A DNA stretch of 64,000 nt from Fervidobacterium sp. (GCA_026419195.1 JANZZV010000001.1:124001-188000); one strand, 5' to 3'. Positions 44,592-46,964 are shown, counted from the first letter of the stretch. Notes: generated by a model from the letters alone, not told the origin. Program-made: numbers and translations.

Positions 44592-44675
44592 ATACTTAAA
44601 GCATCTACTTTACGCAAAATCATTTTTAGTCCCCACAAATATGCTTACAACCTTTCTTGTAATTTTTTGTCTATA

Positions 44676-44704
44676 TTGACAATTTTTTTGGATAATGATA
44701 CAAT
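44676..44704 (+). promoter_or_regulatory. Near-consensus promoter for the DUF2089-bactofilin cluster
   Basis: TTGACA (44676-44681), 17-base spacer, TACAAT (44699-44704), with the first start codon 19 bases downstream of the -10 box, so the leader must be short. Confidence 0.7.
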
Positions 44705-44722
44705 AATTTTGGAGGTGGTAAT

Positions 44723-45109
44723 ATGCCAATGATGTTACCTAAATGTCCAGTGTGTGGGAAAGCAATGAAGGTGACCCAACTGAAATGTGATGAAGATGGA
44801 GTTAGTGTTAGTGGATATTTTGAAGTTCCGGCTTTTTGTTTTTTGGATGAAGAAGATGCTAAGTTTATAATTATGTTTCTTAGAACAAAGGGTAATTTAA
44901 AGGAAATGGAAAGACTGACGGGGATAGGTTATTTCGCATTGCGAGGAAGGCTTGACAAAGTACTTGAGAAAATGGGATTAACTCCTATAGAAGAAATGAT
45001 AGAGGAAACTCAGGGAACCGATGAAGATGTTTTTAAGCTTCTTAGGGAAAAGAAAATAACGGTGGAAGAGGCTATCGCCTTGTTGAAAAGAAAAAAAGCA
45101 CAAGAGTGA
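44723..45109 (+). CDS. DUF2089-family zinc/HTH protein
   Basis: A 128-residue protein. A CPVCGKAM zinc-knuckle begins the chain, a small beta domain follows, then a sigma-region-4-like helix-turn-helix (RTKGNLKEMERLTGIGYFALRGRLDKVL). The C-terminal helical hairpin DVFKLLREKKITVEEAIALL also occurs at the N-termini of the next two proteins. DUF2089 proteins are thought to be transcription regulators. ATG follows GGAGGTGGTAAT. Confidence 0.85.
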   Translation: MPMMLPKCPVCGKAMKVTQLKCDEDGVSVSGYFEVPAFCFLDEEDAKFIIMFLRTKGNLKEMERLTGIGYFALRGRLDKVLEKMGLTPIEEMIEETQGTDEDVFKLLREKKITVEEAIALLKRKKAQE

Positions 45110-45134
45110 GCTTTTGAAAGTGAGGTGGAGTATC

Positions 45135-45635
45135 ATGGGAGAGATCCCAAACGATATTAGAACAATTCTGGAGGCCTTAGCAAGAAAAGAGATAAGTGTT
45201 GAGGAGGCAGAGAAACTTATTTTGATCATTAAACAAAAAGATAATTACAGTAAGAAAAGTGAGAAACGCAGCAAGAGTTTAATTGGAAAAGATTTCGTTC
45301 TCGAAAGTGATCAGGAGTATTTGGGAAGTATCGTAGCTGTGAACAGTAACGTTGTTATTAAAGGAAAGGTTATTGGAGATCTTGAATTAGTGTTTAGTGA
45401 TGTGTACTTTTCAGGAGAAGTTGATGGAAATGTCGAGGCTGTTGGCTGCAAGATAAAATGGGATGGCGGGACTATAAAAGGGAAGCTCGAAATCGTAGGC
45501 TGCAATTACTCTGGAATGAAGCCACGTGTAAAAGGTACTGTCAATGAAATTAATAATTTGTTTGTTAATGGTGTTCTTGGTACTGTAAAGTTATTCATAA
45601 AACCTATTATATCCGGAATAAAGATAGAAGAATAG
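45135..45635 (+). CDS. Bactofilin-like protein with N-terminal helical hairpin
   Basis: A 166-residue protein. Residues about 6-32 form the hairpin motif DIRTILEALARKEISVEEAEKL seen also in its neighbours. After a lysine-rich linker comes a short right-handed beta-helix of bactofilin (polymer-forming) type, with steps such as GSIVAVNSNVVIKGKVIGDL and CKIKWDGGTIKGKLEIVGC. Bactofilins polymerise as membrane-associated scaffolds. ATG 45135 follows GAGGTGGAGTATC; the TTG at 45114 has no ribosome site. It is a paralogue of the next gene. Confidence 0.72.
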   Translation: MGEIPNDIRTILEALARKEISVEEAEKLILIIKQKDNYSKKSEKRSKSLIGKDFVLESDQEYLGSIVAVNSNVVIKGKVIGDLELVFSDVYFSGEVDGNVEAVGCKIKWDGGTIKGKLEIVGCNYSGMKPRVKGTVNEINNLFVNGVLGTVKLFIKPIISGIKIEE

Positions 45636-45647
45636 GGGGAGTTGGAT

Positions 45648-46586
45648 ATGGAGTTAAGAAAGATACTTGAAGCTGTTGAGAAAGGTGACCTGAGCCCCGA
45701 CGATGCAGAAAAGCTCATAAAAATAATATTTGAGTCGGATGTTTGGGAGGAAAAGGCTTCTAAGTCGGATTCTATTGTCAATACAGTTGTGGAAATTAAA
45801 GAAGGCGAGAAAGTAACGAAGAATCTTTCTCTTACCAATGGTAAATTGGTTCTTAAAGGAGAGTTACTTGGTGATGTGTTTGCCGTCAATTCAGATATTG
45901 AACTTTTTGGAACACTCAGTGGTAATCTCAGTTGTGTACGGTCCAAAATTTTCTGGAAAGGTGGGGAAGTTAAAGGTGACCTGAACGCTGTAATGTGTAA
46001 GGAATTTGGAAATGCGAATGTTTTGGGTAAGAGATACATAGTTTCCTTCAACATTCCGTTTGCTAACAAGATATTCTCAAATAATTCTTTTGTGTTTGAA
46101 GATGGAAATTTTGACCTTGGTGTGATTTCCGGAAAACATAACCTGGATAGTTTGAATCGTGAAAAGGTTGTTATCAATGGTCGAACAAATGTAGAGAACG
46201 TAAAGTGTGAAGAGCTTTTTGTTAATGGACAGCTTAGTGCAAAGTCGATAAGTTCAGAAGTGATTAACATCTCGAAAGATGGTGAAATTAACTCAGACGA
46301 GATTTATGCTGAGAGTGTTACAAATAAAGGAGAATTGAATTCCAAGAATTTAATAATGCAATCAATTAACAACAGTGGGTTAATAAAAGTTGAAAAAGGA
46401 GTTATTGAGTCCTTAGATAATGAAGGAGTGATGTTGTGTGAGACACTCGAGATTGAATCAGTCTCAAATAGTGGAAGGATAGAAACCAAACACCTAAGTG
46501 CCCAAACAATAAGCAACCAGGGTGAGATATTTGCCGAATTATTTGAGTATGAAAGTCTATCAGGTAACCCAGTTATAAAAAGGTAA
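45648..46586 (+). CDS. Bactofilin-like protein with C-terminal 16-residue repeats
   Basis: A 312-residue protein. The N-terminal hairpin is LRKILEAVEKGDLSPDDAEKL. A bactofilin-like middle (GKLVLKGELLGDVFAVNSDI, SKIFWKGGEVKGDLNAVMC) parallels the preceding protein. From residue 207 to 302 there are six exact 16-residue units of the form S-V-x-N-x-G-x-(I/L)..., and ten residues of a seventh end the chain, predicting a regular beta-helix stack. ATG 45648 follows AGGGGGAGTTGGAT; TTG 45642 overlaps that site. No signal peptide, so it is probably cytoplasmic and may bind the membrane. Confidence 0.72.
   Translation: MELRKILEAVEKGDLSPDDAEKLIKIIFESDVWEEKASKSDSIVNTVVEIKEGEKVTKNLSLTNGKLVLKGELLGDVFAVNSDIELFGTLSGNLSCVRSKIFWKGGEVKGDLNAVMCKEFGNANVLGKRYIVSFNIPFANKIFSNNSFVFEDGNFDLGVISGKHNLDSLNREKVVINGRTNVENVKCEELFVNGQLSAKSISSEVINISKDGEINSDEIYAESVTNKGELNSKNLIMQSINNSGLIKVEKGVIESLDNEGVMLCETLEIESVSNSGRIETKHLSAQTISNQGEIFAELFEYESLSGNPVIKR
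46266..46583 (+). repeat. Six tandem 48-base units coding exact 16-residue repeats
   Basis: Protein units are NISKDGEINSDEIYAE, SVTNKGELNSKNLIMQ, SINNSGLIKVEKGVIE, SLDNEGVMLCETLEIE, SVSNSGRIETKHLSAQ and TISNQGEIFAELFEYE, then a partial SLSGNPVIKR. The spacing is exactly 16 residues each time, though DNA identity is low, so the period is kept by selection on protein. Confidence 0.85.
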
Positions 46587-46628
46587 TTCTGATTTACTAC
46601 TATAAACTATTTGGAAGAGGTGATCAGT

Positions 46629-46928
46629 ATGTTTTGGGGAGTTATATTACTTTCTGCTGGTATATTCATATTATTAAGTATTGTGCTTTCAGTTACATCT
46701 CCAGTTTGGCTTGTACTTGGTAGTGTTGCAATTGTCGGTGGTGTTGTTAGTATGCTTAAGAGTTTCCCGAATGGACTTGGTTTGTCGATCTTAGGTGTAC
46801 TTATTGTAATCCAGTCTCTTGGGTATTTGAAGATAGGCTTTTGGGAATTTGTTATTGCTATCATTGCAGCAGGATTGATTGAAATAGGACTGAAGATGAT
46901 ATTTTCATCAAAGAATAAATGGAATTAG
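46629..46928 (+). CDS. Small LiaF/LiaI-like membrane protein
   Basis: A 99-residue protein with three or four membrane segments (FWGVILLSAGIFILLSIVLSV, PVWLVLGSVAIVGGVVSML, LGLSILGVLIVIQSL and FWEFVIAIIAAGLIEIGLKM). Repeated small hydrophobic hairpins with a closing tryptophan resemble the DUF5668/LiaI-LiaF-like transmembrane region linked to envelope stress control. ATG 46629 follows GAAGAGGTGATCAGT. It is the fourth gene of the DUF2089 cluster and its only clear membrane protein. Confidence 0.65.
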   Translation: MFWGVILLSAGIFILLSIVLSVTSPVWLVLGSVAIVGGVVSMLKSFPNGLGLSILGVLIVIQSLGYLKIGFWEFVIAIIAAGLIEIGLKMIFSSKNKWN

Positions 46929-46936
46929 CAGAAAAC

Positions 46937-46964
46937 AAAATCCGGACGGATACGTCCGGATTTT

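Follow-up and report, generated by a model that had tools for sequence, protein, structure and literature searches.

Operons that combine a DUF2089 regulator with SHOCT-like, Toastrack and LiaF-TM proteins were reported in a PSP survey by Ravi et al. (2024; PMC11237479), who described the zinc ribbon, HTH and SHOCT-like parts of DUF2089, placed it in Toastrack neighbourhoods that include LiaI-LiaF-TM or PspC, and predicted that the protein links the membrane to transcription. The main text of that survey makes no mention of bactofilin or Thermotoga, and in the open-licence literature we found neither a paper linking bactofilin to DUF2089 or SHOCT nor any experimental study of DUF2089 or published binding site for it.

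Here we describe four + strand genes at positions 44723-46928 of a 64,000-nucleotide stretch (the window) from a 2.06-Mb Fervidobacterium-group genome (Thermotogota). They encode, in order, a DUF2089 regulator, two proteins with a hairpin and a beta-solenoid (Bac1 and Bac2) and a LiaF-TM membrane protein. The locus shares with the DUF2089/Toastrack systems of Ravi et al. a DUF2089 made up of zinc ribbon, HTH and a C-terminal SHOCT-like part, a hairpin on a beta-helix partner, a LiaF-TM protein and predicted membrane-linked transcriptional control, but has bactofilin-like solenoids, with the hairpin N-terminal, in place of Toastrack. Its DUF2089 also belongs to a clade apart, changed in both the zinc ribbon and the recognition helix, and has its own three-repeat operator. 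Bac1 and Bac2 resemble bactofilins (PF04519) in their predicted beta-solenoid, and several of their homologues exceed the Pfam cut-off; they differ in falling below it themselves, in their N-terminal SHOCT-like hairpin, in having a regulator in the operon and, for Bac2, in an additional solenoid whose turns regularly span 16 residues. A LiaF-TM family protein and the theme of a cytoplasmic beta-helix with a SHOCT-like tag are also common to Lia/Psp systems (LiaF-LiaI, YvlB/LiaX type), whereas the window operon has neither a LiaS/LiaR pair nor PspA, and DUF2089 is its regulator. As in the SHOCT domain proper (PMC3581485), a short two-helix module recurs on unrelated proteins, but the window hairpins match the divergent SHOCT-like family PF22746, which is also found N-terminally. 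A first-pass annotation of the locus had called it an undescribed module; this is too strong, because Ravi et al. had given the theme of DUF2089, SHOCT-like domain, beta-helix and LiaF-TM, with Toastrack. What is new here is the predicted operator and regulon of the bactofilin-paired DUF2089 class, its Toastrack-type relative being already described.

Results

All four genes of the first-pass annotation were confirmed. They lie between the divergent hfq/hflX genes on one side and a converging IMP dehydrogenase gene on the other, are separated by gaps of 25, 12 and 42 bases, and are bounded by a single near-consensus promoter (5') and a strong terminator (3'); judging from the sequence, they are probably co-transcribed. 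The terminator (46937-46964; 12-pair stem with a T-run on both strands) is bidirectional and common to the IMP dehydrogenase gene. Start codons were revised using orthologues and ribosome-binding sites, giving ATG at 45135 for Bac1, 45648 for Bac2 and 46629 for LiaF-TM. The DUF2089 protein (44723-45109, 128 aa) consists of a zinc ribbon of the form CxxC...CxxD (PF22747, 2e-12; 47.4 bits against a cut-off of 27.6), an HTH core (PF09862, 4.1e-18; 65.2 bits against 33.4) and a C-terminal SHOCT-like hairpin (PF22746, 2.8e-4). Bac1 (45135-45635, 166 aa) has an N-terminal SHOCT-like hairpin, a short beta-solenoid and a hydrophobic tail, as assigned from Pfam, alignment and AlphaFold2, and the same kinds of evidence define Bac2 (45648-46586, 312 aa; PF22746 3.4e-4, PF04519 7.3e-5 but sub-threshold) as an N-terminal SHOCT-like hairpin followed by two solenoids joined by a linker, the first short and the second long and built of regular 16-residue turns. 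The last gene (46629-46928) encodes a small membrane protein of the LiaF-TM type (99 aa; PF22570, 28.9 bits against a Pfam cut-off of 27, E 2.1e-6), whose orthologues have three to four hydrophobic segments and occur in each of the ten genomes that have the full operon. No PspA or LiaSR was found in the operon and its flanks (hfq/hflX, IMP dehydrogenase), and a search of NCBIfam returned no family.

The first-pass annotation had named two findings that would count against a module, unrelated hairpins and an unconserved neighbourhood; both were checked and neither applied. Of 11 Fervidobacterium/g2 genomes, ten contain the set of four genes; the remaining one is 60% complete. The LiaF-TM gene, however, is not fixed. 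In g3 and g4 (Thermosipho) the operon encodes an MFS exporter after DUF2089 and a single hairpin-solenoid protein, and several of these operons continue with an ABC-2 exporter; the place after the hairpin-solenoid gene is taken by an ABC exporter in g5 and several Thermotogaceae and by an MFS exporter in other Thermotogaceae. In two genomes, one from Dictyoglomota and the other related to it, DUF2089/hairpin-bactofilin forms an isolated pair with no adjoining membrane-protein gene. Since the membrane partners vary across genera, the constant core is the regulator and the hairpin-solenoid protein.

DUF2089 family members occur in 98 of 103 Thermotogota genomes. A tree built from the zinc ribbon and HTH only (86 columns, with long branches, the internal order of which was not relied on) placed all 29 bactofilin-linked DUF2089 proteins, those of the two Dictyoglomota-type genomes included, apart from all 35 others, with branch support of 100/99. 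The two groups also differ at the fourth zinc-ribbon position, which is Asp in 26, His in two and Gly in one of the bactofilin class (n=29) but Cys in 35/35 others, and in the recognition helix, GYF(A/T)LRG in the former and SYPT(A/V) in the latter. The four-cysteine set CxxC...CxxC is a trait of all other Thermotogota members rather than a stated Pfam requirement, and the bactofilin class, which is without it, is by sequence a diverged subclass. In most other Thermotogota, DUF2089 is accompanied by Toastrack (PF13349) together with LiaF-TM or LiaF, small three-TM proteins, and MFS or ABC exporters; one genome, G089, holds both classes (loci L128 and L129). A simple swap of Toastrack for bactofilin inside one operon was rejected, because the DUF2089 classes form separate groups and G089 has both. 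We regard the window system as a sister class distinct from the Toastrack class, with bactofilin-like solenoids in Toastrack's place.

A third DUF2089 subgroup was also seen (L121, L125, L119, L155), in which the partner, of ~125 aa, joins a SHOCT-like hairpin to a small domain of unknown type; at three of these four loci its gene lies just 5' of an apparent aminoacyl-tRNA synthetase gene or a short ORF.

The most telling clue to function is a three-repeat operator. Promoters of the bactofilin-paired class carry three direct repeats, of about AAATATTTTTG, at fixed sites: the first precedes the −35 box, the second occupies the spacer and the third spans the end of the −10 box. The window promoter, TTGACA-17-TACAAT, agrees with the consensus at 11 of 12 positions; its −35 box (44676-44681) keeps its position in orthologous promoters, and its −10 box (44699-44704), preceded by TG, is conserved. 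Repeat 1 (TAATTTTTTGTC, 44660-44671, G at 44669) lies upstream of the −35 box, repeat 2 (AATTTTTTTGGA, 44681-44692, G at 44690) in the −35/−10 spacer, and repeat 3 (AATAATTTTGGA, 44702-44713, G at 44711) overlaps the −10 box and reaches the ribosome-binding site, with scores of 8.2 (matrix from other genera only), 13.1 and 11.8 respectively, all on the + strand. Their TTTTG cores, at 44665, 44686 and 44707, are exactly 21 bp, or two helical turns, apart. As to the strong promoter for all four genes proposed in the first pass, the near-consensus promoter is real and its reach across the genes presumptive, while the operator had been missed.

The triple-repeat pattern has a single match in the window, where 0.125 would be expected, and recurs in DUF2089 promoters of Fervidobacterium, sister genera and Thermotogaceae. 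None was found in the Toastrack-class DUF2089 promoters examined, and Dictyoglomota-type promoters match the operator weakly. With a held-out matrix, trained on DUF2089 promoters of Thermotogaceae and g3/g5 without Fervidobacterium or g2, the window promoter scored 33.1, a value reached in 0 of 1000 shuffles; few of 523 other promoter-like sites attain such scores, and those that do are mostly further DUF2089 promoters. Repeats also lie over the spacer and over the −10/start region of what is a near-consensus promoter. We take this layout to be typical of repression, so DUF2089 would most likely repress its own promoter. Activation would be consistent with the placing of repeat 1 upstream of the −35 box, where activators bind, and with the location of the repeats on one helix face, but given that layout we consider it rather doubtful.

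Two further features of DUF2089 promoter regions may be mentioned. Toastrack-class promoters of family f8 (L141-L144) have AATTTTTGATT and AAAATTGA elements that lie around the −10 box at a distance of ~21 bp from one another, which suggests that DUF2089 of this class may rely on another sequence at a related spacing. In Thermosipho, short similar ORFs with good ribosome-binding sites (examples, MFSLTCLISICSMLLFYRFTM and MSLGCMFSICSMLKFFGFRL) lie between the three-repeat promoter and DUF2089 (L045 400-570, with two in tandem; L046 1015-1080; L047 5365-5430), and these are possible leader or membrane peptides.

The same three-repeat architecture was found at the promoter of an unlinked MFS exporter in 11/11 Fervidobacterium/g2 genomes, strongly in ten, and including that of the window, where the match is at C4:161215-161251. 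Ten of the 11 MFS promoters scored 18-36 with the held-out matrix (0/1000 shuffles each) and the other, in G009, 6.8 (2/1000). This exporter is orthologous to the MFS protein encoded within the operons of Thermosipho and g3 (E 1e-101 to 1e-106), and the likeness of its promoter could stem in part from descent from the operon promoter. An exact pattern run over 20 whole genomes gave 24 matches, at nine DUF2089 promoters, ten MFS promoters and five other sites, and none in the reversed control; designed after these promoters had been seen, it tests specificity but not sensitivity. A stiffer pattern retrieved 11 DUF2089 promoters only, and looser ones (triple TTTTG, or two repeats) gave many chance matches with a non-zero reversed control and were used as leads only. 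In g3/g5 there is a third target, a 72-76 aa three-TM protein with a homologue inside Toastrack-class DUF2089 operons. An operator on a gene outside the operon is good evidence of a shared regulator, for which DUF2089 is the obvious candidate because its own promoter has the operator throughout the class in Thermotogota. A regulon shared by the operon and the MFS exporter is thus well supported in silico, and co-occurrence points to DUF2089 as the putative binder of the repeats. The alternative, in which a different regulator acts on these AT-rich repeats (DUF2089 being a candidate binder only) or such repeats are simply typical of promoters in AT-rich Thermotogota genomes, appears quite improbable, given that 19 of the 24 exact matches fall at two gene families with none in the reversed control, that the repeats are missing from Toastrack-class DUF2089 promoters, and that they withstood the held-out and shuffled controls.

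Other matches were noted in these searches. In G019, three-repeat promoters precede two 41-aa ORFs (L293, C1:1468776; L302, C1:1736737) that end alike, in ...NDLWIIR and ...NDFWVIR, and could possibly represent a small-peptide family of the same regulon. A promoter-like triple repeat with no obvious protein-coding gene close 3' is kept in two g3 genomes (L235, G012 C3:29574; L236, G013 C1:265019). The third pattern match in the window genome (L303, G000 C14:12198), without a good first repeat and followed by a riboswitch-like sequence and then an apparent solute-binding protein gene, is probably due to chance.

Against the bactofilin family PF04519, Bac1 and Bac2 score 16.2 and 23.4 bits, under the cut-off of 27.9, whereas close relatives exceed it (Thermosipho, 33.1; Dictyoglomota, 33.9). 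We call Bac1 and Bac2 'bactofilin-like' because these relatives pass the Pfam cut-off and the window proteins miss it. AlphaFold2 models, obtained from shallow alignments, predict a beta-solenoid fold for both: helices at residues 6-16 and 22-38, a solenoid at 46-139 and a low-confidence hydrophobic tail in Bac1, and in Bac2 two helices ahead of a short solenoid, which a linker connects to a long, regular one with 16-residue turns. Fold searches with the two models gave no match at E <= 0.001; the T. thermophilus bactofilin and BacA were listed among PDB folds as weak matches only, and PDB sequence searches with the solenoid and DUF2089 profiles yielded nothing useful. Pfam and profile searches ruled out a Toastrack identity for the solenoids, no Toastrack (DUF4097/DUF2154) match being found in any of the four proteins.

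Bac1 and Bac2 could be mere targets of DUF2089, structural envelope proteins with no sensing role. Their position inside a presumably autoregulated operon would agree with this, and bactofilins are in general morphogenetic polymers (PMC10945521). We nevertheless think it unlikely: they have a hairpin in common with the regulator, and the bactofilin-like partner and the DUF2089 subclass are co-inherited at 29/29 loci, whereas the LiaF-TM, MFS and ABC targets come and go.

The only other bactofilin-like matches in the window genome are two neighbouring ORFs at G000 C3:311107-312405 (frames of 387 and 420 aa), both without a PF22746 match. In the Thermotogaceae genome G090, the hairpin-bactofilin gene is in two overlapping frames (L130:5476-5977), the result of a frameshift or sequencing error.

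The hairpins of the three soluble proteins proved to be related, as proposed in the first pass, and most probably belong to the SHOCT-like family PF22746 (SHOCT-like domain of DUF2089). They map to residues 102-125 of DUF2089 (45026-45097), to 45150-45248 in Bac1 (PF22746 match at residues 11-29 within the two modelled helices) and to 45654-45734 in Bac2 (helices 3-12 and 17-29), the last being the best PF22746 match in the genome. Although all three are below the cut-off of 27 bits (20.8, 14.1 and 20.6), the DUF2089, Bac1 and Bac2 genes are the three best PF22746 matches in a whole-genome scan (E, in order of rank, 4.8e-5, 3.5e-4 and 0.027; next, 0.42), and the domain was found in 21/21 and 10/10 hairpin-solenoid homologues of alignments A6 and A3, many of them above the cut-off. 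Profiles made separately from orthologues of each protein scored 23.7, 22.2 and 51.6 when compared, against maxima of 15.3, 16.4 and 18.0 for 100 column-permuted control profiles each. The motif given in the first pass, with an x(3,5) spacer, fits both solenoid proteins, but the DUF2089 copy needs x(2); relaxed to x(2,5), it gave exactly three matches in the six-frame window, the three hairpin proteins. In the two Dictyoglomota-type genomes, the adjacent DUF2089/SHOCT-bactofilin pair provides the only PF22746 matches among those listed at E<=0.05. The Toastrack proteins of the sister class bear the same hairpin type at the C-terminus, as against the N-terminus in the bactofilin-like class.

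The main rival to mutual binding of the hairpins is that each is an independent membrane-anchoring tag, which would bring regulator, scaffold and membrane protein next to one another on the inner membrane. Membrane anchoring is what Ravi et al. favour for SHOCT-like domains (PMC11237479), the canonical SHOCT domain showed no self-oligomerisation in one published test (PMC3581485), and the same hairpin also occurs on unrelated partners and small solo proteins. The Dictyoglomota-type pair without an adjoining membrane-protein gene speaks against this reading, and the N- versus C-terminal placing of the hairpin is compatible with either. Separate anchoring is in our view possible, if somewhat doubtful.

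Discussion

On balance, we lean slightly towards the four genes being the core of a self-regulating envelope-stress/export circuit, with a DUF2089 operator on its own and the MFS promoters and a hairpin-linked scaffold. In such a circuit, DUF2089 would bind the three 21-bp-spaced direct repeats of its own promoter, on the same helix face and over the −35 and −10 boxes, and the same operator would control the unlinked MFS exporter in the window genome, both promoters most likely being shut by the bound protein. Bac1 and Bac2, whose polymerisation is putative, would assemble into a bactofilin-like scaffold on or close to the membrane, and their hairpins would bind that of DUF2089 or gather all partners at one membrane site. 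The state of membrane and scaffold would then set whether DUF2089 sits on DNA or is held off, envelope disturbance leading to its release or capture via the hairpin-bearing scaffold. LiaF-TM would be the membrane partner in this genus, and an MFS and/or ABC exporter in sister genera. Within this scheme we infer the binding of DUF2089, repression as opposed to activation, hairpin tethering and the stress signal; for the last, the family name of LiaF-TM is the one pointer in the sequence. More tentatively, and with less than an even chance in our judgement, a bactofilin-type polymer might do the sensing for a transcription circuit in which matching hairpins dock DUF2089 on it reversibly, so that changes in polymer or membrane move it to or from the operator of scaffold and exporter genes.

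With these data, a candidate operator and a small regulon open to direct test can be proposed for DUF2089, a widespread regulator family, and two classes of system can be told apart by their different beta-solenoid partners. The findings suggest a variant of a known membrane-stress control circuit in the heat-loving Thermotogota. If the scaffold does control the regulator, a bacterial filament protein would feed directly into transcription, and the little-understood SHOCT-like hairpin would acquire a concrete role.
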